Shown here: positions 11,911 to 54,064 of the stretch, one piece after another
Layout of the letters: each line of letters opens with the position of its first letter
Position numbering within the stretch: the first letter of the stretch is position 1
Program-made: the position numbers and the translations under genes
Notes under the pieces: model-generated
What the model was told of the DNA's origin: nothing
Database searches by the model: none
The model's input: only the letters and a program-made list of their open reading frames with translations
From: Prauserella flavalba
GTDB lineage: Bacteria; Actinomycetota; Actinomycetes; Mycobacteriales; Pseudonocardiaceae
Reading direction: 5' to 3'
Assembly: GCF_003202235.1 (NCBI RefSeq)
Contig: NZ_MASU01000005.1
Coordinates: 124,001-188,000 of the forward strand
DNA length: 64,000 bases

Positions 11911-11994
11911 CGCGAGTCGCCCGCTCAGGACCGCGAGTTGTGCGTTCCGGACCGCGAGTTGTGCGTTCGCGCTCACGAGTGTCCCGTTCCGGCG
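11911..11994 (+). repeat. 21-bp tandem repeat array A (4 forward units)
   Basis: Four contiguous 21-base units begin at 11911, 11932, 11953 and 11974. Units 2 and 3 begin CGCGAGTTGTGCGTTC; units 1 and 4 are diverged (GAGTCGCCCGCTC, GAGTGTCCCGTTC). They belong to the same family as arrays at 14086, 21064, 50801 and 53828. The array lies between the AMIN-like gene and maleylacetate reductase and ends 57 bases before the latter's start. No reverse-oriented block here. Confidence 0.85.
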
Positions 11995-12051
11995 CGGGCG
12001 ACCTACGCTGAACGCCGGCCCGACAGCGACGACCGGCAACGGAGCATGATC

Positions 12052-13141
12052 ATGGAGTTCGTCCACCGCACACTGCCCCAGCAGGTGTACTTCGGTGCGG
12101 GCAGAGCCGCGGCCAACCTGGCCGCGGAGGTCCGGCAGCGGGGCGCGTCACGGGTCATGGTCATCGCCTCGCCGCGTGAGCGGGAGCGGGCCGAACGGGT
12201 GTGCGCGCGGATCGACGTCGCGGTGTGGCACGACGACGTCGTGCAGCACGTGCCCGTCGCCACCGCCGAGAAGGCGAGGTCCGTCGCCGCCGAGCATGGC
12301 GCCGACCTGCTCGTGAGCATCGGCGGCGGTTCGACCACCGGCCTGGCGAAGGCCGTCGCGCTGACCCGCGGGATGCCGATCGTGGCGGTGCCCACGACCT
12401 ACGCGGGTTCCGAGGCCACCGACGTCTTGGGGGCTGACCGAGGAGGCCACCAAGACCACCGGGGTCGACAGCCGCGTGCTGCCCGCCGCGGTGATCTACG
12501 ACGCCGAGTTGACCCTGTCGCTGCCGGTGGGGCTCTCGGTCGCGTCCGGGCTCAACGGGCTCGCGCACTGCGTCGACGGCATGTGGGCTCCCCGCGCGGA
12601 CCCGATCAACCAGGCACTCGGCGCCGAGGGCATCCGGGCACTGGCCCGTGGCCTGCCGCTGATCGCCGGCGACCCCTCCGGGATCGAGGGCCGGGAGCTC
12701 GCCCTCTACGGCGCCTACCTCTCGGCGGTGGCCTTCGCGTCGGCCGGATCCGGGCTGCATCACAAGATCTGCCACGTCCTCGGAGGCACCTACGAGCTGC
12801 CGCACGCCGAGACGCACGCGACCGTGCTGCCGTACGTGCTGGCGTTCAACGCTCCGGCGGCCCCGGAGGCGGCGGGCCGTATCGCGCACGCGCTCGGCAG
12901 CGACTCCGGCACCGCCGAGGCCGCCGTGGCCGCCCTCGACGAGCTGCGCGTGCGGCTGCACGCGCCCACCGCGCTGCGGGACTACGGCCTGACCGAGGCG
13001 GACCTGCCCGGCGCCGTCGAGCGCGTGCTCGCCGTGGTGCCGCCCTCGAATCCCCGGCCCGTCACCGGGAACAACCTGACCGCATTGCTGCGGGCCGCGC
13101 TCACCGGAGCCGCCCCCGCGACCCAGCTGGAGGAGATCTGA
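12052..13141 (+). pseudogene. Maleylacetate reductase, interrupted by a single-base frameshift
   Basis: The protein is an iron-type alcohol dehydrogenase homologue that reduces maleylacetate to 3-oxoadipate with NAD(P)H in hydroxyquinol catabolism. Frame 1 runs from [17 protein letters not shown] to [13 protein letters not shown] (Rossmann VSIGGGST present). Frame 2 continues from [23 protein letters not shown] to the C-terminus with metal-site [20 protein letters not shown]. The break is at 12427-12433 (TTGGGGG): removing one base restores the family-typical [10 protein letters not shown]. Everything else looks intact (about 363 residues), so this is either a very recent mutation or a sequencing error. 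ATG 12052 has GGAG 7 bases upstream; the stop overlaps the dioxygenase start (TGATG). Confidence 0.8.
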
Positions 13142-14034
13142 TGCCGGACGAGCAGGCCCGCCGGGAGGAAGCACTCGTCGAGGAGGTGCTCGCGTCCTTC
13201 GACGGCGCCTCGCCGCGGCTGCGCGAGGTCATGCGGTCGCTGACGAAGCACCTGCACGACTTCGTGCGGGAGGTGCGGCTCACTGAGCGCGAGTGGGCGG
13301 CCGGCATCGAGTTCCTCACGAAGGCAGGCCATATCACCACCGAGACACGACAGGAGTTCGTGCTGCTCTCCGACGTGCTCGGGGCGTCGATGCAGACGAT
13401 CGCCGTGAACAACGAGGCGTACGGCAACGCGACGGAGGCCACCGTCTTCGGCCCGTTCTTCGTCGAGAACTCGCCGGAGATCGCGCAGGGCGGCGACATC
13501 GCGGGCGGGGCGCCGGGCGAGCCGTGCTGGGTCGAGGGGACCGTCACCGACACCGACGGCAACCCGCTGCCGGGCGCCCGGATCGAGGTGTGGGAGGCCG
13601 ACGAGGAGGGGTTCTACGACGTCCAGTACGACGACGACCGCGTCGCGGGCCGCGCGCACCTGTTCGCCGACGCCGACGGTGCCTACCGGTTCTGGGGGCT
13701 GACCCCCACGCCGTACCCGATTCCGCACGACGGCCCGGTCGGCGCCCTGCTCGAGGCCGTCGGCCGCTCGCCGATGCGCGCCTCGCACCTGCACTTCCTG
13801 GTGTCCGCACCGGGCAGGCACACGCTCGTGACGCACATCTTCGTGGAGGGCGACGAGTACCTGCGCCGCGACAGCGTGTTCGGCGTCAAGGACTCGCTCG
13901 TCAAGCGCTTCGAGCGGCAGGCCGCCGGCACGCCGGCCCCCGACGGCCGCGACCTCGGCGACCGCACGTGGTCCCGCGGCCGTTTCGACATCGTTCTGGC
14001 GCCGGAGCAGGCCGACGCCGGCTCTGCCGGGTAG
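13141..14034 (+). CDS. Hydroxyquinol 1,2-dioxygenase (intradiol)
   Basis: 297 residues. Helical N-terminal domain (about 10-100) and intradiol beta-sandwich. Iron ligands expected at Tyr in EGFYDVQY, Tyr in [11 protein letters not shown] and the two His of ASHLHFLV. The [12 protein letters not shown] segment and its coupling to maleylacetate reductase indicate hydroxyquinol (benzene-1,2,4-triol) as substrate, giving maleylacetate. Start codon overlaps the reductase stop, so translation is coupled. It is clearly different from the catechol-type dioxygenase at 411-1262. No hydroxyquinol-forming hydroxylase lies beside it. Confidence 0.87.
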
Positions 14035-14085
14035 CCGGGCCCCGCAGACCGTCCACACGCGACTCGCGGGCGCCGTCCGCGCGCC

Positions 14086-14270
14086 CGCGAGTCGTGCGTT
14101 CCTGCTCGCGAGTCGTGCGTTCCGGTTCGCGAGTCGTGCGTTCCCGCCGATCCCCGCGCACCTACTCGCGCCACCCCGCCGCTCCCGAACGCACAACTCA
14201 CCGTCCCGAGCGCACGACTCGCGGTCCTGAGCGCACGACTCGCGGTCCTGAGCGGGCGACTCGCGGGGTG
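14086..14270. repeat. 21-bp repeat array B: 3 forward then 4 reverse units
   Basis: Forward units start at 14086, 14107 and 14128 (each begins CGCGAGTCGTGCGTTCC). After a 38-base spacer, four reverse units start at 14187, 14208, 14229 and 14250 (GAGCGCACGACTCGCGGTCC type). The two blocks are inverted relative to each other, so the array could fold back. It fills most of the 331-base gap between the hydroxyquinol dioxygenase and the GntP permease, both on the plus strand; the last 95 bases before the permease hold its promoter/leader with no motif I recognise. Confidence 0.88.
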
Positions 14271-14365
14271 GTTGACCCGCATTGTGGGTGTGTGTTCATA
14301 ATGTGAGTCGCGCGCAGGAGTGGCTCCTTGCGCGGTGCAACGTCGCACGACGGACGGACGGTTGA

Positions 14366-15790
14366 ATGTCAGACACGGCAATACTGATCAACACGGCGGT
14401 CGCGATCGTGGCCATCGTGGTCCTGATCGTTCGGTTCAAGCTGAACCCGCTGATCGCGCTGGTGCTCGGCGGGTGCTACCTCGGCCTCGCGGCCGGGCTC
14501 GGGGCAGGCGGCACCGTCGACGCGGTGACCACCGGCTTCGGCGACATCATGGCCGAGATCGGCCTGCTGATCGCCTTCGGCGTGCTCATGGGCGCCATCC
14601 TGCGTGACCTGCGCGCCATCGAACGCCTGGTGGAGAAGCTGCTCCGCGTGGTGGGGCCGAAGCGGATCCCGCACGCCATGGCGGTGACGATCTCGACGTT
14701 CCTGCAGTCGATCTACCTCGACGTGCTCCTGGTCATCTCCGCCCCGCTCGCCAGGGGCATCGCCCCCAGGCTGGGCAAGTACGGCACCGCGAGGATGGCG
14801 ACGGCGCTGGCCATCGGCCTGGAATGCGGCATCGTGTTCACCATCCCCGGTGTCGGCGCGCTCGCGCTGGCCGGGCTGCTGAACGTGCCGCTGGGCAAGT
14901 ACCTGCTGTACGGCCTGATCGTCGTCATCCCGACCGTCATCATCGCCACCACCGTGATGAGCCTCGTGCTGACCAAGGGCTGGTGGAAGCCGGAGCTCGA
15001 CGAACTGCCCGCCGAGGACACCGGCACCGACGAGAGCGCGGACACCACCACGGGCGCCGAGCCGGACGACGAGCCGTCGGGCGGGGGAGTCGCGGCCGCG
15101 GGTGGCCGCGAGACCACCACGCTCGAACGGCGGCGCACGCGGACGGAACCGCACCTGCTCGTCCTGTTCGCACCACTCGTGGTCGCCCTGCTGCTGGTGG
15201 CGACCGGTGCGCTCGCCGAGGTCGCCGAGTGGGAGAACCCCGTGGTGACCTTCCTCTCCAGCCCGGTGATCGCCCTGCTGATCGGCCTCGTCGGCACGTG
15301 CCTCGTCGGCCGCAGGTACATGGGCCAGCCCAAGGTCGAGGAGTCCCTCGGCAGCGGCCTGCGGCAGAGCGGGCAGATCCTGCTGCTCAGCGGTGTCGGC
15401 GGGTCGCTCGCCGCCGTGATCGAGGCGGTCGGCCTCGGCGACATCCTCGGCAAGTACCTGTCGGCGAGCACCTGGGCGCCGCTGCTCGTGGTGTGGCTGA
15501 TCGCCGCGCTGCTGCACGTGGCCGTCGGCTCGGTGACGATCTCCGCCATCACCGCGGCGGGCCTGCTCGCCCCGGTCGCGCCGTCGCTGGGACTCGACCC
15601 CGTGCTCGTCGCGCTCGCCGCCGGTGCCGGCTCGCTGTTCCTGGTGCACCTGACGAGCAACACGTTCTGGCTGCTGCAGTCGCTGCTCGGCCAGACCACC
15701 CGGGGAACGCTCAAGACCTGTTCGGTCGGGGTGTCCGTCGCCTCCGTCATCGCGATGGGTCCGATTCTGGCGCTGAGCCTGGTCCTGTGA
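14366..15790 (+). CDS. GntP-family organic acid permease
   Basis: 474 residues, about 12 hydrophobic segments, in the gluconate:H+ symporter family. Recognisable pieces are RFKLNPLIALVLGGCYLGLAAG at the start, AFGVLMGAILRD, and the C-terminal SNTFWLLQSLLGQTTRGTLKT. A long acidic/Thr-rich cytoplasmic loop occurs at about residues 212-258. It should import a sugar acid or hydroxydicarboxylate. It heads a four-gene unit with a CoA-transferase, an HMG-CoA-lyase-like aldolase and a hydroxyacid dehydrogenase, so its substrate is probably the acid those enzymes degrade. Confidence 0.85.
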   Translation: MSDTAILINTAVAIVAIVVLIVRFKLNPLIALVLGGCYLGLAAGLGAGGTVDAVTTGFGDIMAEIGLLIAFGVLMGAILRDLRAIERLVEKLLRVVGPKRIPHAMAVTISTFLQSIYLDVLLVISAPLARGIAPRLGKYGTARMATALAIGLECGIVFTIPGVGALALAGLLNVPLGKYLLYGLIVVIPTVIIATTVMSLVLTKGWWKPELDELPAEDTGTDESADTTTGAEPDDEPSGGGVAAAGGRETTTLERRRTRTEPHLLVLFAPLVVALLLVATGALAEVAEWENPVVTFLSSPVIALLIGLVGTCLVGRRYMGQPKVEESLGSGLRQSGQILLLSGVGGSLAAVIEAVGLGDILGKYLSASTWAPLLVVWLIAALLHVAVGSVTISAITAAGLLAPVAPSLGLDPVLVALAAGAGSLFLVHLTSNTFWLLQSLLGQTTRGTLKTCSVGVSVASVIAMGPILALSLVL

Positions 15791-15821
15791 CCGGGCCCGT
15801 GCCCAAGGGGAAGGGAGAACA

Positions 15822-17060
15822 GTGCGCGACGAGGGAACACGGCTGCCGCTGGAGGGCGTGCGCGTCGTCGAACTCGGCAACTACATCGCCGGGCCCACGG
15901 CCGGGCGGATGCTGGCTGACTTCGGCGCCGAGGTGATCAAGGTCGAGCGGCCGGGTCGCGGCGACGAGCTGCGGAACTGGCGGCTCTACGCCGGGGACGT
16001 CTCGATGCTCTTCCGGACCATCAACCGCAACAAGAAGTCCGTCGTGCTCGACCTGCGCACCGACAAGGGCCGCGACATCGTGCTGGACCTCGTGCGCCAC
16101 AGCGACGTCGTGATCGAGAACTTCCGCCCAGGCACGCTGGAGGGCTGGGGCCTTGGCCCGTCGGTGCTGGAGGAGGCGAACCCGGACATCGTGCTCGCGC
16201 GGATCTCCGCGTTCGGCCAGTCCGGGCCGCGCTCGGCGAGGCCGGGTTTCGCCGCCGTCGCCGAGGCGATGGGCGGACTGCGCAACCTGGTGGGCGAGGC
16301 CGACCGGCCGCCGTCGCGGGTCGGAGTGTCCATCGGGGACTCGATCGCGGGTCTCTACGCCGCGTTCGGCGTGATGGTGACACTGTTTCAGCGGGCCAGC
16401 ACCGGCCACAGTGGACCACTCGCCGACCGTGTGGTGGACGTGGCGCTGCACGAGGCGGTGTTCTCGATGATGGAGTCGCTGGTGCCCGACTACCTCGCCT
16501 ACGGGGTGGAGCGCAAGCGGGTCGGTGGCCGGATGGAGGGCATCGCGCCCACCAATGCCTACGAGTGCCTCGACGGCGCGAGCGTGGTGATCGCGGGCAA
16601 CGGCGACTCGATCTTCCAGCGGTACATGCGGGCGATCGGCCGGCCCGACCTCGCCGACGATCCGGGTCTGGCCGGCAACGCGCAGCGGTGGGCGCGGCGG
16701 GACGAGCTGGACGAGGCCATCGGGCAGTGGACGAAGACCCTCACGCGCGCCGAGGTGCTCAAGGTCCTCGACGACGCCGGGGTGCCGGCCGGTCCCATCT
16801 ACACCGCCGCCGACATCTGCTCCGACGAGCAGTACGGGGCCAGGAACATGATCCAGCGGTTCCCGGTCGACGTCGGCGCCGGCGAGCCCGCCGAGGTCGG
16901 CTTTCCCGGCATCGTCCCGGTGCTGGGCGACGAGTCGCTGCCCATCCGGTCGGTGGGCCCCGACCTCGGCGCGCACACCCGCGAGGTGCTCGCCGGCGTG
17001 CTCGGCCGGGGCGAGGACGAGATCGACACGATCGTGGACGAGATGGAGGGACGCCGATGA
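15822..17060 (+). CDS. Class III CoA-transferase (CaiB/BaiF family)
   Basis: 412 residues. N-terminal VRVVELGNYIAGPTAGRMLADFGAEVIKVE, then DLRTDKGRDIVLDLV and VVIENFRPGTLEGWG are the family signature; the Asp nucleophile lies near ADRVVDVALHEAVFSMME. It moves CoA between carboxylic acids, probably activating the acid imported by GntP using succinyl-CoA or acetyl-CoA. GTG 15822 is preceded by AAGGGAG. The stop overlaps the next start (ATGA), so activation and the following aldol cleavage are likely coupled. Confidence 0.85.
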   Translation: MRDEGTRLPLEGVRVVELGNYIAGPTAGRMLADFGAEVIKVERPGRGDELRNWRLYAGDVSMLFRTINRNKKSVVLDLRTDKGRDIVLDLVRHSDVVIENFRPGTLEGWGLGPSVLEEANPDIVLARISAFGQSGPRSARPGFAAVAEAMGGLRNLVGEADRPPSRVGVSIGDSIAGLYAAFGVMVTLFQRASTGHSGPLADRVVDVALHEAVFSMMESLVPDYLAYGVERKRVGGRMEGIAPTNAYECLDGASVVIAGNGDSIFQRYMRAIGRPDLADDPGLAGNAQRWARRDELDEAIGQWTKTLTRAEVLKVLDDAGVPAGPIYTAADICSDEQYGARNMIQRFPVDVGAGEPAEVGFPGIVPVLGDESLPIRSVGPDLGAHTREVLAGVLGRGEDEIDTIVDEMEGRR

Positions 17061-17974
17061 GCGCCGTGACCGTGCGCGACGTGACGTTGCGGGACGGCCT
17101 GCAGCTGACCGGCAAGGTGCTGCCTGCCGAGCGGAAGGTGGCCGTGGTCAGGGAGCTGCTGCGGCTCGGTGTGCCGAGCATCGAGGTCGGCTCGCTCGCC
17201 AGGCCGGACCTGGTGCCCTCGATGGGCAACACCGTCGAGGTGATCGAGCGGTTGACGCCGGAGGAGCTGGCGCGCTGCTGGGTGTGGGTCGCGACGCCGC
17301 GTCACGTCGAGCGGGCCGTGGCCGCGGGCGCCCGGAACTTCCAGTACTGCCTCTCGGCCTCGGACAAGCACAACCAGGCCAACATCGGGCGTTCGACCGA
17401 CGCGAGCCTGGAGGCGATGCCGAAGGCCGTCGAGCACGCGCTGGGCGCCGGCGGCCGCATCCAGCTGTGCATCGCGACGTCGTTCACGTGCCCGTTCGAG
17501 GGCGAGGTCCCCGAGGAGCGTGTGCTCGCCATCGCGGGCGACGCCAGGGCCGAGGGCGCGGCGGACGTCGTCGTGTGCGACACCCTCGGCCAGGCCGTCC
17601 CCGCCCAGGTCACGAGCCTCGTCGCCAAGATCGCCGAGCGGACGCCGCCCCGGCGGATCGTCTACCACGGGCACGACACGTGGGGGCTGGGCGTCGCCAA
17701 CTCGCTCGCCGCCGCGGCGGCCGGTGCGGCCGAGGTCGACGGTGCGCTCGGCGGGCTCGGCGGCTGCCCGTTCGCGCCCGGCGCGAGCGGCAACGCCGCG
17801 ACCGAGGACCTGCTCTTCGCGCTGCGTCCCGGCTGGCTCACCCCGGAGACGTTCGCCGCGCTGGTGCGGCTCACCGACGGGCTGCTGGCCGAGCTGGGCG
17901 AGCCGAACCGTTCCCGCGCCGTGCAGGGCGCGCACTCCAGCGCCACCGCGTTCCCGTGGGCGCTGGCGTCGTGA
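17057..17974 (+). CDS. HMG-CoA lyase-like aldolase
   Basis: 305 residues of the HMGL TIM-barrel family. VRDVTLRDGLQ holds the metal-binding Asp and catalytic Arg-Asp; YHGHDTWGLGVANS gives the two metal His; GGLGGCPFAPGASGNAATED contains the mobile-loop Cys of true HMG-CoA lyases. It should split a 3-hydroxy-3-alkyl acyl-CoA into acetyl-CoA and an oxoacid. With the CoA-transferase just before it, 3-hydroxy-3-methylglutarate or a related tertiary hydroxy acid is a plausible substrate (inference). Confidence 0.83.
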   Translation: MSAVTVRDVTLRDGLQLTGKVLPAERKVAVVRELLRLGVPSIEVGSLARPDLVPSMGNTVEVIERLTPEELARCWVWVATPRHVERAVAAGARNFQYCLSASDKHNQANIGRSTDASLEAMPKAVEHALGAGGRIQLCIATSFTCPFEGEVPEERVLAIAGDARAEGAADVVVCDTLGQAVPAQVTSLVAKIAERTPPRRIVYHGHDTWGLGVANSLAAAAAGAAEVDGALGGLGGCPFAPGASGNAATEDLLFALRPGWLTPETFAALVRLTDGLLAELGEPNRSRAVQGAHSSATAFPWALAS

Positions 17975-18984
17975 GCGGAACCGTCCTGGTCACTACGCCG
18001 CTGCCGGAGCCGGGGATGCGGCTACTGCGGGACGCGGGGGAGGTGGTGGTTGCCGAGCGGGCGCCGTCGGCCGCCGAGCTGCGTGAGGCGTGCGCCTCCG
18101 GCCGCTACGACGTCGTCGTCGCCCAGCTCACCGACGTATTCGACGAACAGCTGCTGGCCACGGCCAGTATCCGCGGTGTCGCCAACTACGCCGTCGGCCA
18201 CGACAACGTCGACGTGCCAGCCGCGACCCGGCGCGGCGTGCTCGTGGCCAACACGCCCGGCGTGCTCACCGAGGCCACCGCAGACCTCGCGATGCTGTTG
18301 ATCCTCGCCACCGCGCGGCGCTGCGTGGAGGCCGACGCGTTCGTGCGCGCGGGCCGGTTCCGGGGCTGGCAGCCGGAGCTGCTGCTCGGCGGCGACGTCA
18401 CCGGCGCGGCACTCGGCCTCGCCGGGTTCGGCCGGATCGCCCGCGCCACCGCCACGCGGGCACTCGGCTTCGGCATGACCGTGCGCTACACGGCGCGCGG
18501 CGGACCCGTCCCCGACGCCGAGCTGGGCCCGCTCGCCGGGCGTGTGCGGTACGTGAGCTGGGAGGAGCTGGTGCGGGAGAGCGACTTCCTCTCCCTGCAC
18601 GTCCCGCTCACCGACGACACCCGCCACCTCGTCGACGCCGCCGTCCTGCGGGCGATGAAGCCGACGGCCTACCTCATCAACACGGCGCGGGGGCCGATCG
18701 TGGACGAGAAAGCGCTGGTCGGCGCGCTGCGCGACGGCGTGATCGCGGGCGCCGGCCTGGACGTCTACGAGCTGGAGCCGCAGCTGGCGGAAGGTCTCGC
18801 GCAGCTGCCGAACACGACGCTGCTGCCGCACGTCGGCAGCGCGACCCGGCCCGTGCGCGCGAGGATGGCCGAACTGTGCGCGCGCAACGCCGTCGCGATG
18901 GCGGCGGGCCAGCGGCCCCCGCACCCGGTGAACCCGGCGGCGTGGGACGTCACGACGGGAACCGGCCGCCAAGGGCCCGGGTGA
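17971..18984 (+). CDS. D-isomer-specific 2-hydroxyacid dehydrogenase
   Basis: 337 residues. NAD-binding GLAGFGRIARATA, Arg in NTARGPIVDE, the Glu region LDVYELEP, and catalytic His in LLPHVGSATR follow the glyoxylate/hydroxypyruvate reductase layout. It would interconvert a 2-oxoacid and a D-2-hydroxyacid with NAD(P)H. GTG 17971 overlaps the upstream stop (GTGA), so it is the last gene of the GntP operon. Its final 35 bases overlap the end of the convergent IclR gene. Confidence 0.85.
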   Translation: MSGTVLVTTPLPEPGMRLLRDAGEVVVAERAPSAAELREACASGRYDVVVAQLTDVFDEQLLATASIRGVANYAVGHDNVDVPAATRRGVLVANTPGVLTEATADLAMLLILATARRCVEADAFVRAGRFRGWQPELLLGGDVTGAALGLAGFGRIARATATRALGFGMTVRYTARGGPVPDAELGPLAGRVRYVSWEELVRESDFLSLHVPLTDDTRHLVDAAVLRAMKPTAYLINTARGPIVDEKALVGALRDGVIAGAGLDVYELEPQLAEGLAQLPNTTLLPHVGSATRPVRARMAELCARNAVAMAAGQRPPHPVNPAAWDVTTGTGRQGPG

Positions 18985-19759
18985 TCCGTTCCGCATGTTC
19001 GACCAGCACGTCGACCCACTCGACGCACTTCTCGTAGGGCATCCGCAGCGTCGGGCCCTGGATCATCAGTGCGCCGACCAGATCGGCGGCCGAGTCGAAC
19101 ACCGGGGCCGCGAGACCCGAGGCGCCGTCGACGCGCTCACCGACCGTGATGGCGTAGCCGTCGGCGGCGGTCTGCTTGATGAGCCTGCGCAGCTCGTCGC
19201 GGTTGGTGACGGTGCTGTCGGTGAGCTGGGGGAGCTCGTGCTGGAGGACCTCGTCGGCGAGGTCCGGGTTCCAGGCGAGCAGCACGCGGCCCGAGGAACC
19301 GACCGTGATCGGCGCGATCCTGCCGACGGACATCTCCCGGCGCAGGGCGTGGTGGGTCTCGGCGACGGCGATGCACACGCGGTGCTCGCCCTCGGCCCGG
19401 AAGAAGCACGCCGTCTCGCCGGTGACGTCCCGCAGGTCCTTGAGCACCGGGTTGACCACGGCGAGCACGTCGAAGTCCTTGGCCGCCGCGGCCGCCCAGT
19501 AGGCCATTCGGACACCGATGCGAAAACGGTCGTCGGCGCGGTCGAGAAACCCGTTCGCGACCAGGTTGGTCACCAGCCGCTGCACGGTCGACGTGGGCAG
19601 ACCGGTAGATTGCTGTATCTCGCGCAACGTCAGCGACGGCCGCTTCAGCGTGAAGGCGTTGAGGATCTCCGTGATCTTGCCCAGCACGAGCAGCGGCGTG
19701 TGCGTGGCCCCGTCGGTCGCCCTGGCTGGGTCCCGGCCGTGCTCGTCGCGGCTACTCAT
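18950..19759 (-). CDS. IclR-family transcriptional regulator
   Basis: 269 residues: winged helix at about 25-85 (LTLREIQQSTGLPTSTVQRLVTNLVANGFL), IclR effector domain to the end (ITVGSSGRVLLAW, GASGLAAPVFD). ATG 19759 keeps the gene clear of the divergent threonine dehydratase 28 bases away. It probably controls the convergent GntP-CoA-transferase-lyase-dehydrogenase operon or the divergent dehydratase; no palindromic operator stands out in the very short divergent gap. Confidence 0.82.
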   Translation of the reverse strand: MSSRDEHGRDPARATDGATHTPLLVLGKITEILNAFTLKRPSLTLREIQQSTGLPTSTVQRLVTNLVANGFLDRADDRFRIGVRMAYWAAAAAKDFDVLAVVNPVLKDLRDVTGETACFFRAEGEHRVCIAVAETHHALRREMSVGRIAPITVGSSGRVLLAWNPDLADEVLQHELPQLTDSTVTNRDELRRLIKQTAADGYAITVGERVDGASGLAAPVFDSAADLVGALMIQGPTLRMPYEKCVEWVDVLVEHAERITRALGGRFPS

Positions 19760-19787
19760 GGCACGAACATACGACAGGAGGACCGTG

Positions 19788-21056: not shown

Positions 21057-21063
21057 CCCTTTC

Positions 21064-21341
21064 CGCGAGTCGCCCGTTCCGGCCCGCGAGTCGTGCGTTC
21101 CCGGCCGCGAGTCGTGCGTTCCCGGCCGCGAGTCGTGCGTTCCGGATCGCGAGTCGTGCGTTCCGGATCGCGCGGGAACGCGAGTCGCGGACCGGAGCCG
21201 GGCACTCGCGCGCCTGAGCGGCGGACCCGCGACCCTGAGCGCACGACTCGGCGTCTGGAGTGCACGACTCGCGCGCCTGAACGCACGACTCGCGGTTCTG
21301 AGTGCACGACTCGCGCGCCTGAACGTACGACTCGCGGCGGG
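21064..21341. repeat. 21-bp repeat array C: 5 forward then 7 reverse units
   Basis: Forward units start at 21064, 21085, 21106, 21127 and 21148; four of them begin CGCGAGTCGTGCGTTCC. Reverse units start at 21195, 21216, 21237, 21258, 21279, 21300 and 21321 (GAACGCACGACTCGCG type, alternating GAAC/GAGT first letters). A 26-base spacer separates the blocks. It is the largest array of the family here and sits directly behind the threonine dehydratase stop. Open reading frames across it are an artefact of the 7-codon period. Confidence 0.9.
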
Positions 21342-27027: not shown

Positions 27028-29169
27028 ATGTACCAACGATTACGCACATCGCTGGGCGTGGCCGCCCGGCGGGGCACCGTGGGGTTGCTGGGCGTTCTCC
27101 TGGTGGCGTTGTGGGTGGTGCCCGCCTCGCTCGCCGGCGAGCAGGCCCAGCGGACGGAGTCGTCCCAGCAGGCGCAACAGCAGATCCTCACCTGGACGGC
27201 CAACGACAGCATCACCGAGTACGCCTCGGCGCCGAGCACCGCCACGGCGGGCGCCGCGACGCTGGTGTTCGAGAACAGCACCGCGACGGGCAACACGACG
27301 GGGATGCCGCATACGCTGACGTTCGACACCTCGACGCCCGGCTACAACCACGACGTGAACGTCAACATCACGGCGAGCCCGTTCGACGCCAACCAGGGCC
27401 GCTACGAGGTGGACGTCAACCTCACGCCGGGCCAGTACCGCTACTACTGCGCGCTGCCGGGCCACGGTCAGATGGCAGGGGTGCTCACGGTCACCGACGG
27501 CGGTGGCGAGGACACCACGGCGCCCTCGGTCGCGGGTGAGGTCACCGGTGAGCAGGACGCCGACGGCAACTACGTCGGCACGGCGACGGTCGCCGTCTCG
27601 GCGCAGGACACCGAGTCCGGCGTCGCGTCGGTCGAGTACCAGCTGGACGGTGGCGGGTTCCAGCCCTACACCGACCCGGTGGCGGTGAGCGAGCCCGGCG
27701 AGCACACCGTGGAGTTCCGGGCGACCGACAACGCGGGCAACGTGTCGCAGACCGGTTCGGTGACCTTCACGGTCGTCGAGCAGGCGCCGGAGGACACGAC
27801 CCCGCCGACGGTCACGGGCGAGCTGAGCGGCACCCAGGACGCCGACGGCAACTACCTCGGCAAGGCCACGGTCACGGTCAGGGCACAGGACACCCAGTCG
27901 GGCATCGCGTCCGTGGAGTATGAGGTGGACGACACCGGGTTCCAGCCCTACACGGGCCCGGTGGAGGTCGCCGAGCTCGGCGACCACTCGGTGCAGTTCC
28001 GGGCCACGGACAACGCGGGCAACGTCTCCGAGACCGGCTTCGTGACGTTCCGCGTCGTCGAGCCCCCGGAGGGCGACACCACGCCGCCGCACGTGATGGC
28101 GGAGGTGACCGGCGAGCAGAACCCGGACGGTCACTATCTCGGCTCGGCGAGCGTGGAGCTGACCGCGCACGACGCCGAGTCCGGTGTGGACGGCATCGAG
28201 TACGCGCTCGACGGCGGGGAGTTCGCCGCCTACAGCGGCCCCGTCGTGGTGTCGGCGCCGGGCGAGCACACCGTGAGCTACCGGGCGACCGACAACTCCG
28301 GCAACACGTCCGAACCGGGTTCGGTGACGTTCACCGTCGTCGAGAACGGCCAGGAGGACACGACGCCGCCGCAGGTGTCGGCGGAGGTGACCGGTGAGCG
28401 GGACGGCGACGGCAACTACGTCGGCTCGGCGACCGTGTCCGTGACCGCGGTGGACGAGGGGTCGGGCGTGCACGGCGTGGAGTACGCGCTCGACGGCGGC
28501 GAGTTCACCGCCTACACCGATCCGGTCGAGGTCGCGGCGGAGGGCGAGCACACGGTACGGTTCCGCGCCACCGACCACGCGGGCAACACGTCCGAGCCGG
28601 GTTCGGTGACGTTCACGGTCGTGCCCGGCCAGCAGGAGGACACCACGCCTCCCGTGGTCACGGCGCGGCTCACCGGTGAGATGGACGCCGGCTGGAACTA
28701 CCTCGAGTCGGCGAAACTCACGCTCACCGCCACCGACGAGCAGTCCGGCGTCGCCTCGGTCGAGTACAGCTTCAGCGAAGGGAGCTTCCGGCCGTACCGG
28801 GTCCCGCTGACGATCGCCGACGCGGGCGTGTACACGGTGTCCTACCGTGCCACGGACAACGCCGGCAACGTGTCGGAGACGGGCACGGCGACGTTCACGA
28901 TCGTCGACCCGGAGCCGACGTGCTCGGTGTCCGACACGCGGGCGACCGTGTTCGTGGGCGCCGAGGACACCGGCGTCGCCAACGTCGACACCGGCAACGG
29001 GTGCACCATCAACGATCTGATCGACGAGGAGGCCGAGTATCCCGACCACACCGCGTTCGTCACGCACGTCCGTGAGGTGACCGCAGGCCTGCTGGCGGAC
29101 GGCATCATCACCAAGCAGGAGCGGCAGCGCATCGTGCAGGCCGCGAAGAACGCCGAGATCGGCGTCTGA
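27028..29169 (+). CDS. Exported cupredoxin with five 94-residue beta repeats
   Basis: 713 residues. Signal peptide 1-36. A cupredoxin domain (about 50-155) has type 1 copper ligands His95 (GMPHTL), Cys141, His146 and Met149 (YYCALPGHGQM). Five tandem repeats of about 94 residues follow (about 160-630), each with EDTTPP, DxDGNYxGxA, SGVxxVEY, YTDPV and FRATDNAGN signatures (OmpL47/Ig-like type). The last 82 residues (632-713) are a CSVSDTRATV...GCTINDLID module shared with the preceding protein. It could shuttle electrons while held away from the membrane on a repeat stalk. No transmembrane anchor or sortase motif is seen. Confidence 0.85.
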   Translation: MYQRLRTSLGVAARRGTVGLLGVLLVALWVVPASLAGEQAQRTESSQQAQQQILTWTANDSITEYASAPSTATAGAATLVFENSTATGNTTGMPHTLTFDTSTPGYNHDVNVNITASPFDANQGRYEVDVNLTPGQYRYYCALPGHGQMAGVLTVTDGGGEDTTAPSVAGEVTGEQDADGNYVGTATVAVSAQDTESGVASVEYQLDGGGFQPYTDPVAVSEPGEHTVEFRATDNAGNVSQTGSVTFTVVEQAPEDTTPPTVTGELSGTQDADGNYLGKATVTVRAQDTQSGIASVEYEVDDTGFQPYTGPVEVAELGDHSVQFRATDNAGNVSETGFVTFRVVEPPEGDTTPPHVMAEVTGEQNPDGHYLGSASVELTAHDAESGVDGIEYALDGGEFAAYSGPVVVSAPGEHTVSYRATDNSGNTSEPGSVTFTVVENGQEDTTPPQVSAEVTGERDGDGNYVGSATVSVTAVDEGSGVHGVEYALDGGEFTAYTDPVEVAAEGEHTVRFRATDHAGNTSEPGSVTFTVVPGQQEDTTPPVVTARLTGEMDAGWNYLESAKLTLTATDEQSGVASVEYSFSEGSFRPYRVPLTIADAGVYTVSYRATDNAGNVSETGTATFTIVDPEPTCSVSDTRATVFVGAEDTGVANVDTGNGCTINDLIDEEAEYPDHTAFVTHVREVTAGLLADGIITKQERQRIVQAAKNAEIGV

Positions 29170-46350: not shown

Positions 46351-46410
46351 GCTCGCCTCCTTTGTGGTACCGATGTATCATAACTGGACCGGCGAGACCG
46401 AGGTGCGGAC

Positions 46411-46887: not shown

Positions 46888-47123
46888 GCGGCACGCCGTC
46901 CGCGTCGCCGCACGCGAATCCGGCGTCCATGCACTGTGGACGATCGGTGCGCCGCGCCTGCGTCCGAGGCGGGACGCGGGCGCCCGTCCGCGACGGTCTG
47001 CGACCGGCTCCCGCGGCAGCGGATCGATGTCCGCCGGAAGTTCGCCGTCCAGGGGTATCACCATCCGGGCTCCGGCACGCGCACTATGGGAGGGACGGCA
47101 CCGACGCTGATGGGCTGACGGCG

Positions 47124-47420
47124 ATGACGACGACGCTCGACGACACCGGGGCAGGCGCGCTGCGCCGGGGCGAGGCCGACCCGGGGCACCGGAGCCGGTT
47201 GCCCGTCCCGCCCGCGCGGGGTGGCACGCACCCCGGCGCCGGCGGCCTCGCGGGAACCTCGCCGGGCCTGCGGCCCGCCACCAGGGCCGAGCTGCCCGGC
47301 GCCGTCACCGCCACCCGCGCGCTCACGCTGCTCACCCCGCGCGAGCCGCACCGCCGCCTGCGCCCGGAGCCCGGCGCCGTCACCGCCGCGCTCGCCCGGC
47401 TCGTCCCGGAGGAACCATGA
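47124..47420 (+). pseudogene. Collapsed kynureninase remnant
   Basis: A 98-codon open frame with no complete domain. Its first half (EADPGHRSRLPVPPARGG, then GLAGTSPGLRPATRAEL) resembles the kynureninase N-terminus around the YLxGNSLGLxP loop. The second half (ALTLLTPREPHRRLRPEPG, AVTAALARLVPEEP) resembles its C-terminal segment around TPRxxxxRG. About 300 internal residues with the PLP site are missing, as expected from an internal deletion. Its stop overlaps the kmo start (ATGA). Position between a promoter gap and kynurenine 3-monooxygenase supports the reading, but similarity is weak and from memory; a novel small protein is possible. Confidence 0.4.
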
Positions 47421-48744
47421 CGGCCAACGGAGACGTCGCGATCGTCGGCGCGGGGCTGACCGGCTGCCTGCTCGCCGGGTACCTCGCGCGCCGGGGTGAG
47501 CGGGTGGTGCTCGACGAGCGGCGCCCCGACCCCCGGCTCACCGGAGCCGAACGCGGACGCTCCATCAACCTCGCGCTGTCCGAACGCGGCCTCGACGCCC
47601 TGCGGCGGGTGGGGCTCGACGGCACGGTCCTCGCCGGGGCGCTGCCCATGCGCGGCCGGATGGTCCACGCCGGCAAGGGCGCAGACGGAGCACTGGACTT
47701 CCAGCCCTACAGCGCCGACGGCGAGCGCGCGATCAACTCGATCGGCCGGCGCGCCCTCAACAACCTCCTGCTGGACGCCGCGCAGGCGCCCGCGGAGGTG
47801 GAGGTGCGCTTCGAGCACCGGCTGACCGGCCTCGACCCGGCCACCGGCGCGCTGACGTTCGAGACACCGGACGGGCCCGTACACGCCGGGGCCGCCGTGG
47901 TGCTGGGCGCCGACGGGGCGGGCTCGGCCGTGCGCGGCGAGCTGCTGCGCCACGGCGCCACCACCGAGACGCTCGACTTCCTCGACTACGGCTACAAGGA
48001 GCTGACCATCCCGGCCGTGGACGGCGACTTCGCGCTCGACCCGGGTGCCCTGCACATCTGGCCGAGGGGCCGCTCGATGATGATCGCGCTGCCCAACCCG
48101 GACCGCTCGTTCACGTGCACCCTGTTCTGGCCCACCGGCGGCACCGAGTCCTTCGCCTCGCTCAGCAGCCCCGCCGCCGTGGAGCAGTACTTCACCGCGC
48201 ACTACCCCGACGTGGTGCCGCTGCTGCCGGAGCTGGTCACCGAGTACCGTGAGAATCCCGTCGGCCTGCTCGGCACCGTGCACTGCGCGCCCTGGCAGGC
48301 GAGAGGCCGGGTGTGCCTGCTCGGCGACGCCGCGCACGCGATCGTCCCGTTCTACGGGCAGGGCGCCAACTGCGCGTTCGAGGACGTCGTGGTGCTCGAC
48401 CGGTGCCTCGACGACACCGGCGGCGACTGGAGCGCGGCCCTGCCGCTGTTCGACCGGGAACGCCGCGCCGACACCGAGGCGATCGCGGAGATGGCACTGG
48501 CCAACTTCACCGAAATGCGCGACAAGATCGCCTCGCCGCTGTTCAAGCTCGGCAAGCGCGTCGAGCACGCGCTGGAGCGCGCGCTGCCGGGGCGCTACGT
48601 CTCGCGCTACGAGCTCGTGTCCTTCTCGACCGTCCCGTACTCGGTGGTGCGCCGCCGCGTGCGGGCCCAGCACCGCCTGCTCGGCGCGGCGGCGGCCGGA
48701 GCTCTCGGCCACTCCGGCGCCGTCACCGCACTCCGGAGGAAGTC

Positions 48745-48748
<4 letters not shown>
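47417..48748 (+). CDS. kmo: Kynurenine 3-monooxygenase
   Basis: 443 residues. FAD motif GAGLTGCLLA, the KMO-specific GRSINLALSERGLDAL and AINSIGRRALNNLLL, and GDAAHAIVPFYGQGANCAFEDVVVL are diagnostic. It hydroxylates L-kynurenine to 3-hydroxykynurenine with NADPH and O2. Start overlaps the upstream remnant stop and its own stop overlaps the aldehyde dehydrogenase start, giving coupled translation. Without a working kynureninase here, 3-hydroxyanthranilate formation would need an enzyme encoded elsewhere. Confidence 0.9.
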
Positions 48749-50202
<1,454 letters not shown>

Positions 50203-50264
50203 AAGGGGACCTCAGGAACGGCGGCGGCGCCCGCACCGGAGTAGCACTGGAGTAGGAGGACGAC

Positions 50265-50798
50265 ATGACAGAAACGACCGGTATCACCGCTCCCATCCAC
50301 TTTCCCGGCTGGCTCGAGCAGAACCAGGCGCTGCTCAAACCGCCGGTCGGCAACAAGCAGCTGTTCCCCGGCTCGCAGGACTTCATCGTGATGGTGGTGG
50401 GCGGGCCCAACGCGCGCACCGACTTCCACGTCGACCCCTACGAGGAGTTCTTCTACCAGATCAGGGGCAACATCCACGTCGACATCGTCACCGAGAACGG
50501 CGTCGAGCCCGTGCACATCCGCGAGGGCGAGATGTGGGTGCTGCCGCCGAACGTGCCGCACTCGCCGCAGCGGCCCGAGGCCGGCTCTGTCGGCATCGTG
50601 ATCGAGCGCGTCCGCAAGGAGGGCACGCTGGAGAAGTTCCAGTGGTACTGCCCGAACTGCTCGGCACTCGTGTACGAGGTCGAGCTGCAGGTGAGCGACA
50701 TCGTCGCCGACCTGCCGCCGGTGTTCGAGGCGTTCTACACCGACGAGCAGGCGCGCGTGTGCCGCGAATGCGGCACGACGCACCCGGGCAAGGGCTGA
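50265..50798 (+). CDS. 3-hydroxyanthranilate 3,4-dioxygenase
   Basis: 177 residues, cupin fold. FHVDPYEEFFYQIRGN supplies the iron-binding His and Glu; LPPNVPHSPQRPEAG the second His. The C-terminus has the rubredoxin-like iron site of the bacterial enzyme: CPNCSALV and CRECGTTHP. It opens 3-hydroxyanthranilate to 2-amino-3-carboxymuconate semialdehyde. TAGGAGG precedes ATG 50265. Last gene of the kynurenine operon; array D begins 2 bases after its stop. Confidence 0.92.
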   Translation: MTETTGITAPIHFPGWLEQNQALLKPPVGNKQLFPGSQDFIVMVVGGPNARTDFHVDPYEEFFYQIRGNIHVDIVTENGVEPVHIREGEMWVLPPNVPHSPQRPEAGSVGIVIERVRKEGTLEKFQWYCPNCSALVYEVELQVSDIVADLPPVFEAFYTDEQARVCRECGTTHPGKG

Positions 50799-50800
50799 CG

Positions 50801-50884
50801 CGCGAGTCGTGCGCTCCGGCCCGCGAGTCGTGCACTCCGGACGCCGAGTTGTGCACTCGGGACGCCGAGTTGTGCGCTCGGGAC
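50801..50884 (+). repeat. 21-bp tandem repeat array D (4 forward units)
   Basis: Units start at 50801, 50822, 50843 and 50864, reading from CGCGAGTCGTGCGCTCC to GCCGAGTTGTGCGCTCG. It exactly fills the gap between two convergent genes, 2 bases after one stop and 4 bases before the other. Forward orientation only. Confidence 0.87.
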
Positions 50885-50888
50885 CGGC

Positions 50889-51542
50889 TCAGTCCGCGGT
50901 GGACCCGCCGAGATCGGTGTGCTCGGCGACCGTGAAGAAGATGTCGCCGCAGTGCTCCACGATCTCCTCCTCGCTCGCAGGCAGCGTGCCGTCCAGCCAC
51001 GACGTCAGAGTCTGGGCGAGCCCGCCGACCAGCAGCTCGGCGGTCACCTCGAGCCGCGTGCTGGTGTGCACGCCGTAGAACTCGCGCGCCTGCAGACCCA
51101 GCAGCCGCACGAACAGGCGCGTCGACTCGACGCGGCGCTTGGCGAGGACCGTGCCGCTCAGCGCGGGGGAGAACAGCAGCCGCCCGCGCCGGGGGTCCTC
51201 GGCGACCGTGCGCACGATCGTGCCCAGCCCGGCCCTGATCTTCGCGCGCGCGTCCCTCGGCGCCGCGTCGACCGCCGCGAGGGTGGTCGCCGCGATGTCC
51301 TCCACCACGTGGTCGTAGACCGCGATCGCGAACGCGTCGCGATCGGCGAAGCTCTCGTAGAAGTACCTCGCCGCGAGCCCGGCCTGCCTGCAGACCCCGC
51401 GCACGCTGAGATTCTGCTCGCCGTCGCGCGCGCCGAGCAGCTCCAGCCCGGCCTCGACGAGCTGGGCCCTGCGCTCGGCCTGCCGGTCACTGCCCGTGAC
51501 GCCGCCGTAGGTCCGCAGAGGTGTGGGGTCCATGCCGACCAT
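50889..51542 (-). CDS. TetR-family regulator
   Basis: 217 residues. HTH at about 35-70 (LSVRGVCRQAGLAARYFYESFADRDAF), then an alpha-helical ligand domain. ATG 51542 is chosen because GGAG lies 8 bases upstream; ATG 51533 is the alternative. Divergent from the MpaB-family gene with a long inverted repeat between them, so that gene is its probable target. Confidence 0.83.
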   Translation of the reverse strand: MVGMDPTPLRTYGGVTGSDRQAERRAQLVEAGLELLGARDGEQNLSVRGVCRQAGLAARYFYESFADRDAFAIAVYDHVVEDIAATTLAAVDAAPRDARAKIRAGLGTIVRTVAEDPRRGRLLFSPALSGTVLAKRRVESTRLFVRLLGLQAREFYGVHTSTRLEVTAELLVGGLAQTLTSWLDGTLPASEEEIVEHCGDIFFTVAEHTDLGGSTAD

Positions 51543-51572
51543 CTTGACATCTCCGGGGACCACGCGGTTGCA

Positions 51573-51598
51573 TATCTGCTAACGGGTGTGAGCAGATA
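51573..51598. promoter_or_regulatory. TetR operator candidate
   Basis: TATCTGCT and AGCAGATA form an 8-base inverted repeat with a 10-base gap, centred between the divergent TetR and MpaB-family genes. It ends 12 bases before the latter's start codon. Confidence 0.6.
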
Positions 51599-51610
51599 AA
51601 GGGGTCGCCG

Positions 51611-52447
51611 ATGGACACCACCACGAAGAAGCCGGAGTCGATGCTGGACGTCCGTGACGACATGGTCATCGGTGCCGGGCTGATGGCGGGCGCGGCGAAC
51701 ATCATCATGCAGCTGGCGCGGCCGGGGGTCGGGTACGGCGTGGTGGAGAGCAGGGTCGACGACGGCAACGTCTTCAAGCACCCGGTGAAACGGACGCGCA
51801 CGACGCTGACCTACCTCGCCGTGGCCACGCTGGGCACCGAGGAGGAGCGCCAGGCCTACCGGCGCGCGGTCGACAAGCAGCACCGGCAGGTGTATTCGAG
51901 CAAGCAGAGCCCGGTCAAGTACAGCGCGATGGACCCGCGGCTGCAGCTGTGGGTCGCGGCCTGCCTGTACAAGGGCTTCGAGGACATCTACCACGTCTTC
52001 GCGGGCAGGCTCGAACCCGGCGAGCTCGACGCGGTCTATCGCGCCGCCGCGCCGCTGGGCACCACGCTGCAGGTCCGTGAGGACATGTGGCCCGCCGACC
52101 GGGCGGCGTTCGAGGAGTATTGGAACTCCTCGCTGGAGCAGGTCCACATCGACGACACCGTGCGCGAGTACCTCTACGGGATCGCCACACTGCGCTTCAT
52201 GCCGCGCATCGTGAGCCTGCTGTTCGGGTCGTTCAACCGCTTTGTCACCACCGGCTTCCTGCCGCAGCGGTTCCGCGACGAGATGCGCCTGACGTGGACA
52301 CCGCGGCAGCAGCGGCGCTGGGACCGGCTGATGCGGGGCATCGCGAGGGCCATCAAGCCGTTGCCGAGGTTCTTGCGCGAGTTCCCCTACAACGCCTACC
52401 TCTGGGACCTGCGGCGCAGGCTGCGCACCGGCCGTCCCCTCGTCTGA
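51611..52447 (+). CDS. MpaB/DUF2236-family oxygenase-like protein
   Basis: 278 residues. RTTLTYLAVATLGTEEERQAYRRAVDKQHRQV and YSAMDPRLQLWVAACLYKGF match the DUF2236 family, which includes rubber oxygenase Lcp and fungal MpaB and binds haem through conserved His. No signal peptide, so unlike secreted Lcp it is probably intracellular. The leader holds AAAGGGG. Controlled by the divergent TetR regulator (inference). Substrate unknown, possibly a lipid or terpenoid. Confidence 0.75.
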   Translation: MDTTTKKPESMLDVRDDMVIGAGLMAGAANIIMQLARPGVGYGVVESRVDDGNVFKHPVKRTRTTLTYLAVATLGTEEERQAYRRAVDKQHRQVYSSKQSPVKYSAMDPRLQLWVAACLYKGFEDIYHVFAGRLEPGELDAVYRAAAPLGTTLQVREDMWPADRAAFEEYWNSSLEQVHIDDTVREYLYGIATLRFMPRIVSLLFGSFNRFVTTGFLPQRFRDEMRLTWTPRQQRRWDRLMRGIARAIKPLPRFLREFPYNAYLWDLRRRLRTGRPLV

Positions 52448-52538
52448 GCCCGCCGCCCGCCGGCCACGACCGCTCGCGGGGAAGATCGCGGGCGCCTAGC
52501 GTGTTGGACGGACAGGCGACGCGGGAAGGATGAGGCCG

Positions 52539-52862
52539 ATGACCGAGCAGGTGACCCAGCCGCGGGTGGTCCGCAACGACGAGCGGAACCGGTACGAGGT
52601 GTGGTCGGGCGAGCGGCTCGCCGGCTTCTCCGAGTACCGCGAGCAGGGCGAGCGCACCGTGTACCTGCACACCGAGGTCGACGACGCCTTCGCCGGACAG
52701 GGGCTCGGGAAGGTGCTCGCCGCGGGCGCGCTCGACGACGCCGTGGCGCGGGGCCGGATCATCGTGCCGGTGTGCCCGTTCATCGCAAGCTACGTGCGCA
52801 AGAACCCCGACCGCTACGAGGAGCACGTCCACTGGCGCGGTAACGGCAAGGCGGATGAGTAA
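52539..52862 (+). CDS. Small GNAT-like N-acetyltransferase (YjdJ/NATD1 type)
   Basis: 107 residues. RTVYLHTEVDDAFAGQGLGKVLAAGALDDA carries the acetyl-CoA loop (GQGLGK), followed by IIVPVCPFIASYVRKNP. ATG 52539 is preferred over ATG 52530 because GGGAAGG ends 9 bases before it. Its 3' end overlaps the pirin gene by 8 bases. Confidence 0.82.
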   Translation: MTEQVTQPRVVRNDERNRYEVWSGERLAGFSEYREQGERTVYLHTEVDDAFAGQGLGKVLAAGALDDAVARGRIIVPVCPFIASYVRKNPDRYEEHVHWRGNGKADE

Positions 52863-53805
52863 CCTCGACGCCCGCCCCGAGGTGACGCCGTGCCGCACGG
52901 CGGAACACGGCGCGGTGACCGAGCTGCTGCGGGCCCGGACCGTCCCGCTCGGCGGGGTGCGGGGCATCCAGGTCGACCGGGTGCTGCCGCAGCGGGCTCT
53001 GCCGACCGTCGGCGCGTGGTGCTTCCTCGACCAGTTCGGTCCCGCGCGCTCCGACATGCGCGTGCTGCCGCATCCGCACATCGGCCTGCAGACCGTCACC
53101 TGGCCGATCGCGGGCGAGATCCGGCACCGCGACAGCATCGGCAGCGACGTGGTCGTCCGGCCCGGCCAGCTCAACCTCATGACCGGCGGCCGAGGGGTGG
53201 CGCACTCGGAGTTCTCGCTCGGCTCCGAGCCGTTGCTGCACGGCCTGCAGCTGTGGGTGGCGTTGCCGAGGGACAGCACCGGCGTCGTGCCCGCCTTCGA
53301 ACAGCACGTGTCGTTGCCGGCGTACGAGGACGGCGGGCTGCGGGCGACGGTGCTGGTGGGTGCGCTGGGGGAGGCGGTGTCGCCCGCGACGGTGTACACG
53401 CCGATCGTCGGCGCCGAGCTGACGGTGGAGCCGGGTGCCGGCGCGGAGGTGCCGCTGCGCCCGGACTTCGAGTACGCCGTGCTCGTGGTGGAGGGTGAGG
53501 CCGTCGTCGCGGACACCCCACTCGCGGTGGGCCCGTTGCTGTACCTGGGCACCGGCCGCACGTCGCTGCCGGTGTCGTCGGCGGGCGGCGCCCGGGCCGT
53601 GCTGCTCGGCGGTGAGCCCTTCCCCGACGAGCTCGTGATGTGGTGGAACTTCGTCGGCCGCGGCCACGACGAGATCGCCCGGGCCCGCGCCGACTGGGAA
53701 GCCGGCGACACCTCCCGTTTCGGCCGCGTCGCCGGTCACGGTGACGCGCGCATCCCCGCGCCCGGGCTCCCCGGCGTCCGGCTGACACCGCGCCGCCGCC
53801 GCTGA
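52855..53805 (+). CDS. Pirin-family bicupin
   Basis: 316 residues. WCFLDQFGP, then HPHIGLQTVTWPIAGEIRHRD and MTGGRGVAHSEFS give the N-terminal cupin metal ligands (three His and a Glu). A second cupin half follows with FPDELVMWWNFVG. Pirins include quercetinase-like dioxygenases and redox-sensitive cofactors. Overlaps the acetyltransferase gene. Array E starts 22 bases after its stop. Confidence 0.87.
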   Translation: MSNLDARPEVTPCRTAEHGAVTELLRARTVPLGGVRGIQVDRVLPQRALPTVGAWCFLDQFGPARSDMRVLPHPHIGLQTVTWPIAGEIRHRDSIGSDVVVRPGQLNLMTGGRGVAHSEFSLGSEPLLHGLQLWVALPRDSTGVVPAFEQHVSLPAYEDGGLRATVLVGALGEAVSPATVYTPIVGAELTVEPGAGAEVPLRPDFEYAVLVVEGEAVVADTPLAVGPLLYLGTGRTSLPVSSAGGARAVLLGGEPFPDELVMWWNFVGRGHDEIARARADWEAGDTSRFGRVAGHGDARIPAPGLPGVRLTPRRRR

Positions 53806-53827
53806 CGCGCCGCCGTAGCGGCGGCCG

Positions 53828-54064
53828 CGCGAGTCGTGCGTTCCCGTTCGCGAGTCGTGCGCTCCGGACCGCGAGTCGTGCGCTCCCGGCCGCGAGTCGT
53901 GCGTTCCTGCGCGCGAGTTCTGCATTCCCGCCCGCGAGTTCCCCGCTTCGGTAGTTCCCGCTTTCCCGCGGCAGTACGGCGAACGCACAACTCGGTGTCC
54001 TGAGTGCACAACTCGCGGTCCTGAGCGGGCGACTCGCGGGCTGGAGCGGGCGACTCGCGCGGGG
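53828..54064. repeat. 21-bp repeat array E: 6 forward then 4 reverse units
   Basis: Forward units start at 53828, 53849, 53870, 53891, 53912 and 53933 (the last two degenerate). Reverse units start at 53981, 54002, 54023 and 54044. The spacer is 27 bases. It occupies most of the 377-base gap between pirin and the 581-residue unknown gene; the remaining 118 bases are that operon's promoter region. Confidence 0.88.

Follow-up and report, generated by a model that had tools for sequence, protein, structure and literature searches.

Polar roadblock terminators are oriented and repeated sites that lie behind genes and face the incoming polymerase. Other described systems close to the element reported here are the REP/BIME/REPIN elements, the intrinsic terminators made of clustered hairpins, and the TAACTGA direct repeats of the Beggiatoaceae. 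The clustered-hairpin terminators are treated in a study of 13 genomes, one of them from a mycobacterium (PMC8355165), and the TAACTGA repeats are given as 169 intergenic sets in one genome and are thought to bind a factor (PMC4679880). Here we analysed a 64-kb stretch of Prauserella flavalba DNA (the window; positions 124,001 to 188,000 of contig NZ_MASU01000005.1), in which five arrays, all intergenic, comprise 37 units of 21 bp. The original prediction had listed these five arrays and 37 units, and all were present where it had placed them, with ends that agreed within 5 bp. None of the five overlapped a gene called by a codon-usage script made for this analysis, and the arrays are intergenic as predicted. 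The unit reads CGCGAGT-YGTGC-RYTC, followed by a 5-base linker with one nearly fixed G. The predicted unit length of 21 bp was correct, while the description lacked the nearly fixed G, the RYTC variants and the inverted orientation of 15 of the units, which lie on the minus strand, the other 22 being on the plus strand. Three of the arrays are mirror pairs, in which a forward arm, a short loop and an inverted arm follow one another, and the other two are a forward arm alone. With somewhat less than even confidence, we infer that the arrays are a dispersing 3'-end hairpin element, which may serve as a two-way transcription end or insulator and whose units may be read by a putative factor. In its basic form, a mirror pair of the oriented unit CGCGAGT-NNNN-C-RYTC would be enlarged in each arm by units of 21 or 22 bp. 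This element would end or insulate transcription from both sides as a hairpin-type two-way terminator without a U-run, and a putative sequence-specific factor would read the centre of the unit.

The source genome (G000; 8.09 Mb) was sampled by reading 1.2 Mb of contig without selection, and a pattern search pointed to 43 further places, of which 40 were read as well; G001 and G002 are relatives, and other G numbers are further genomes compared. The original prediction of a genome-wide family proved right, and the motif is not rare elsewhere in the genome, rarity being what that prediction had named as evidence against itself: a search with the core at no more than one mismatch gave 202 and 166 matches, as against 1 and 2 in the control. 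The sampled parts contained 68 arrays with 543 units, found with a unit finder that demands spacing in multiples of 21; 45 of these arrays came from the pattern-found places, and the unselected ones are the 23 in the 1.2 Mb. In this 1.2 Mb, 176 units scored above 11 bits, compared with 3 in the reversed control. Seven single-unit matches in it were dropped, six of which were inside called genes. The seventh, C5:220622, is a lone inverted unit of 16.1 bits that fills the gap between two convergent genes beside a stop codon, and may be a real single unit, the seed or remnant of an array.

The arrays showed a clear preference for the ends of genes. In the unselected 1.2 Mb, arrays occupied none of the 191 divergent gaps of at least 60 bp, compared with 23 of the 304 other gaps (Fisher 1.1e-5). 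The gene context of the 68 arrays was convergent for 31, tandem for 34, divergent for 2 and unclassed for 1, so that 2 of 67 classed arrays are divergent in this wider, pattern-picked set; tRNA genes were sought at the two divergent-gap arrays, and none was found. Gene-facing arms began within 12 bp of the stop codon in 66 of 84 cases. In the 34 tandem pairs with an array, the far array edge was at a median of 101 bp (smallest 12) ahead of the next start codon, and the median gap of all 759 tandem gene pairs in the 1.2 Mb was 21 bp. From the closeness to the stop codon and the wide distance at the far edge, the arrays tend to separate transcription units, lying against the stop codon of the first one. 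Single arms in tandem pairs were in the sense orientation in 10 of 11 cases. The 76 stop-to-first-unit gaps of -1 to 27 bp fell in the three frames as 28, 23 and 25. Therefore, there is no sign of coding, the other possibility that the original prediction had named as fatal to it, and coding repeats were ruled out.

Two arms were present in 45 of the 68 arrays, and 44 of the 45 were arranged as forward-then-inverted, the sole exception including off-register calls. The same arrangement was found in all 14 two-armed arrays of G001 and G002. Among the genomes compared, mirror pairs were exclusively inward in G000 (29), G002 (24), G171 (35), G232 (12), G247 (21) and G265 (15), each against 0 outward, and also in G001, G034, G067, G102, G224, G229 and G251 with 1–10 matches. 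They were mostly outward in G153, G221, G237 and G033 (39, 23, 20 and 29, vs 3, 1, 2 and 7 inward), mixed in G022, G166 and G263 (5, 2 and 7 outward vs 4, 1 and 11 inward), and present in neither form in G003 and G070. Opposed arms are thus common among the genomes even where their orientation differs. A 5'-to-3' polarity along the arm was also observed in other genera, where position 8 was C-then-T in 37 pairs and T-then-C in 8; this order was not followed in G237 (2 to 4) and G265 (2 to 2).

The spacing of the units was strictly kept. When no period was demanded, the distance from one unit to the next was 21 bp in 135 of the 136 neighbouring pairs of G000 (the other was 23 bp), in 49 of 49 in G001 and in 72 of 73 in G002, despite differences of 3.3 to 4.4 bases between adjacent units across these three genomes (3.28 in G000). 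The predicted combination of expansion with constraint on the core is supported. As the original prediction had suggested, the core was also searched across related genera, and it was present in other genomes of the family with a period of 21 or 22 bp, each of nine genomes keeping to a single value throughout the 161 pairs examined; G012, which was mixed, is the exception apart from the one pair in G000. Since both periods occur, two exact turns of B-DNA are not required, and the proposal that exactly two helical turns are the meaning of the period does not hold, because related genomes keep 22 bp just as strictly. Of 249 genomes of the family, 49 had the two-unit pattern (46 of the 228 good ones), and they represent 19 of 46 genera. 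None of 131 genomes from the order's other families had it, and the four matches in a 150-genome search all belonged to the family. The reversed control of this pattern matched in three of the 249 (G182, G195 and G263) and in one of the 150 (G315). The organisms that bear the arrays are soil bacteria. An array at locus L040 of Prauserella endophytica is the same as that at locus L106 of G002, which belongs to the same genus. In G003, of the same genus, a 400-kb stretch had few and decayed arrays; its GC content (0.678) and coding density (0.787) were both below those of the stretches from the other relatives.

The frame GAGT-NNNN-C-RYTC was common to the array genomes, and the centre, the period and the mirror arrangement varied by genome. 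In the outer two units of each arm, the centre was CGTGC in 182 of 226 units and CCCCC in 5 in G000, whereas CCCCC was found in 21 of 30 in G001 and in 25 of 38 in G002. Array-flanking genes of these sister species are about 90–97% alike. The divergence between G000 and G002 was 0.24, 0.36 and 0.20 bits at positions 9–11 and at most 0.06 at other positions; against G001, it was 0.35, 0.44 and 0.22 bits at positions 9–11 and up to 0.13 at the others. The commonest centres in other genomes were CCAAC, CGTAC, CGAAC, CCCAC, TCCAC or TGCGC, and G247 had a mixture. The centre of G000 was more uniform than its linker (0.57–0.77 vs 1.35–1.72 bits at positions 17, 18 and 20), which favours selection on the centre and disfavours simple copying of whole units. 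Reading by a putative factor would account for a centre that varies rather little within a genome and yet differs between sister species. A further-reaching possibility, which we regard as unlikely, is a self-renewing and species-addressed punctuation. Here, a factor with a species-specific core would read polar arrays, and at many loci units with a new core would join the growing end while units with the old core are left behind; sister species would thus have switched core, period or mirror arrangement genome-wide.

Orthologous arrays were compared over 15, 15 and 10 arm pairs in the three genome comparisons. The second-innermost unit was kept in each of them: the value for the variable columns was 0.718 against 0.565 expected for G000–G002 (none of 4000 permutations), 0.638 against 0.523 for G002–G001 (P 0.001) and 0.590 against 0.536 for G000–G001 (P 0.01). 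The innermost unit was kept only in G000–G002 (P 0.005; P 0.5–0.6 in the others). For outer units, the P values were 0.02 and 0.23 in G000–G002 and 0.2 to 0.96 in the other comparisons. The arrays themselves had been recognised in the original prediction, but the inverted pairs, the arm polarity, the lack of arrays in divergent gaps of the unselected sample, the better-kept inner units and the genome-specific centre had escaped it.

Secondary structure was calculated for two-armed arrays, i.e., 21 of 23 tandem and 9 of 20 convergent ones (arrays longer than 330 bp and 8 convergent ones were left out). These 30 arrays had a mean z of about -10, at about -70 kcal/mol per 100 nt. Transcripts of two-armed arrays are thus predicted by this folding to form long and very stable, imperfect hairpins. 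A predicted GC-rich hairpin right behind the stop codon, which is a feature of intrinsic terminators, was found in two-armed but not in single-armed arrays. In REP elements every unit forms a stem-loop of its own; here, GAGT and RYTC within one unit could form 4 pairs, and single arms folded barely better than shuffles. The arms also differed by strand. In 20 of the 23 tandem two-armed arrays of G000, the two arms differed in the direction that favours G.U pairing in the sense transcript. Among the GTTC/GCTC/ACTC variants, T at position 14 had a frequency of 0.57 in sense and 0.34 in antisense arms (P 0.014), and A at position 13 had 0.16 and 0.39, respectively (P 0.005). Whichever way the bias arose, such a difference between the strands points to an upstream transcript that extends into the far arm.

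Several observations weigh against a role of the arrays as a transcription end or insulator. Among arrays in convergent or tandem gaps, 22 of 65 are single-armed, and the predicted folding of such arms is slight (n=23; mean z -1.6, with a range from -5.1 to 1.2). The arms within one tandem array were identical at 15.49 of 21 bases, fewer than the 16.08 expected between arrays (none of 5000 permutations was as low), and the arm-arm RNA mismatches, 3.71 against 3.23, were above every permutation. These differences sit in the linkers and at positions 13–14. Arms of convergent arrays were likewise less alike, weakly (P 0.06). Covariation between arms gave no positive signal in seven other genomes with samples of 3–17 pairs, and G001 and G002 taken alone showed no clear trend over all columns. 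A stem selected through arm covariation was sought and not found, and G000 shows the opposite; the lower likeness of the arms may reflect avoidance of long perfect palindromes in the DNA. The wobble bias of the tandem arrays was seen in 2 of 2 cases in G002 and 1 of 3 in G001, single sense arms have bases similar to those of the biased arms, and transcription-linked C-to-T mutation may explain the tandem case equally well. Of 20 convergent arrays, 15 favour the plus side, which is arbitrary for them. A run of four or more T was present no farther than 20 bases from the far edge in only 1 of 63 transcript directions, and actinobacterial terminators often have no U-run. In G221, G247 and G265, three of nine other genomes, the first two bases of the linker were at least as uniform as the centre. 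Finally, since the mirror pair points outward in other genomes, the sense orientation towards the gene is not universal.

Some of these observations would suit an array of phased protein sites at gene ends that acts on the DNA and not on the RNA, for chromosome organisation or against replication-transcription conflict. The strict spacing, the oriented units, the genome-specific centre expected with a co-evolving binding protein, and the lack of any sign of selection for arm-arm pairing agree with such an array. However, exact B-DNA phasing is unnecessary when periods of 21 and 22 bp both occur, and the restriction to 3' ends seems better explained by transcription; we regard this explanation as quite improbable.

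The main rival to the terminator or insulator reading is that the arrays are a selfish or neutral repeat, which disperses and is tolerated where genes end. Its hairpins would be copied around, survive where they are least harmful (after stops and off promoters) and grow by duplication, any effect on transcription being incidental. We consider this doubtful. The occurrence in the family is patchy, and species differ in the presence of individual arrays. When both flanking genes of G000 arrays were matched, an array was at the same place in 8 of 8 cases in the fetched G002 stretch but in 6 of 9 in G001; the three others were absent in G001, and array 77752 of G002 was missing in G000. The clean case of absence is C5:760892, where the G001 gap is 167 bp and that of G000 is 392 bp, 169 bp of the latter being non-array; the array lies 4 bp from the stop codon. 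Target-site duplication, a feature of miniature inverted-repeat transposable elements, was not clear at this one empty site, by reading. Two pairs of G000 arrays were alike almost from end to end, one at 90.6% over 192 bp and the other at 88% over 150 bp, and shared a flank of at most 10 bp. Loops recur in other genomes: judged by eye, the loop CCCGGGATG is common to 9 of 20 listed outward pairs (forward matches) of G237, and GCGCACGTTCC is at 5 places in G171, which suggests copying of whole hairpins there. Against a selfish repeat, most flank-matched sites keep the array, the core and spacing are constrained while the linkers drift, and a comparison of the loops in 40 of the 45 two-armed G000 arrays showed them to be mostly unrelated. 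In addition, no mobilising enzyme was found, the RAYT family being absent from G000, G001 and G002.

Beside the array at 3362–3530 of locus L203, the stretch at about 3250–3360 resembles, to judge by eye, the C-terminal part of an aminotransferase-type gene whose upstream portion is missing, so that an old deletion or insertion may have taken place where this array lies. In the 159-bp loop of the array at 3414–3803 of locus L219, a palindromic repeat of a different kind, AGTGAAGGCCACCTTCACT, occurs together with a copy related to it; it does not resemble the 21-bp unit.

In the window, the sequence GAGTCGTGCGTTC had 27 matches at no more than two mismatches against 5.05 expected, and none of 100 shuffles reached 27. 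The first array (11910–11993) is a single forward arm of 4 units on the plus strand, 128 bp past an AMIN-like gene ending at 11781; its first unit has the centre CGCCC, and the last is degenerate. The second (14085–14266; 7 units) has a forward arm of 3 plus-strand units (14085–14147), 50 bp past the stop codon of a catechol-dioxygenase-like gene, and an inverted arm of 4 minus-strand units (14183–14266), the next called plus-strand gene, GntP-permease-like, being 99 bp on. The third (21063–21337; 12 units) begins 6 bp past the stop codon of a threonine-dehydratase-like gene with a forward arm of 5 plus-strand units (21063–21167), and its inverted arm consists of 7 minus-strand units (21191–21337), the inner two degenerate. 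The fourth (50800–50883) is a single forward arm of 4 plus-strand units, which begins 1 bp after the stop codon of the preceding plus-strand gene and takes up most of the 90-bp convergent gap between this 3-HAO-like gene and a minus-strand gene without Pfam match. The fifth (53827–54060; 10 units) has a forward arm of 6 plus-strand units (53827–53952), 21 bp past the stop codon of a pirin-like gene, and an inverted arm of 4 minus-strand units (53977–54060), with the next called plus-strand gene 122 bp on. Four of the five arrays therefore lie close behind a plus-strand stop codon, in agreement with the original prediction. Apart from the arrays, a 282-bp tandem repeat (4.1 copies, 72% match) occupies 27538–28705 within the called gene 27058–29169, whose product is probably built of repeated domains, each about 94 residues long.

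Rfam 15 had no match in the window at gathering score, and a known RNA family was rejected on this basis. The array at 53826–54061 matched just two microRNA-precursor models, both below gathering score and one of them far below it, most likely due only to the long hairpin. One array had no match in either the plasmid or the phage collection; the gene pair around the array at 50800 matched 47 plasmid records, none over 80% of the pair. A plasmid or phage origin is not supported by this one-array search of both collections. The original prediction had recognised no described element, and the repeat was likewise not described in the literature searched, which left most subscription journals outside. 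Should the arrays prove to end transcription, they would form a class of terminators united by sequence, which would allow transcript ends to be annotated in the array-bearing fifth of the family genomes. That a short core has changed in concert at dozens of loci, and differently from genome to genome, offers a testable case of either co-evolution with a putative factor or a novel spreading of short units in bacteria.

Compared with the described systems, the arrays resemble polar roadblock terminators in having oriented and repeated sites after genes, but their orientation is reversed in some genomes and the binding protein is here only putative. They share with the TAACTGA repeats intergenic sets of a short direct repeat and a supposed factor binding; the latter, however, have a 7-bp unit and are located mostly just upstream of start codons, not as inverted pairs at gene ends (PMC4679880). 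With the clustered-hairpin terminators they have in common hairpins near stop codons and a reduced reliance on the U-run. Those terminators are, as we read the report, defined by structure, whereas the arrays are one sequence family with a fixed unit (PMC8355165).

That the arrays are REP/BIME-type elements mobilised by a RAYT transposase is very improbable. Matches to PF01797 were found in 2 of 15 genomes with arrays and in 3 of 15 without; this family being no commoner with arrays and lacking from G000, G001 and G002, RAYT mobilisation was rejected. The GTAG or CGTC tag is not in the G000 unit consensus, by reading. We know of no REP form that is a polar tandem array of 21 or 22 bp. Filing under REP/BIME fails because the tag, by reading, and the RAYT link both fail. 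The likeness is nevertheless considerable: the arrays are short and extragenic, with hundreds of copies in convergent and tandem gaps and rarely in divergent ones, and they have hairpin-capable inverted pairs, all as described for REPs, for which roles in termination and mRNA stability have been proposed (PMC3733652). What sets the arrays apart, besides the missing tag and RAYT link, is their strict tandem period of 21 or 22 bp, their polar arms and a genome-specific centre in a shared frame.

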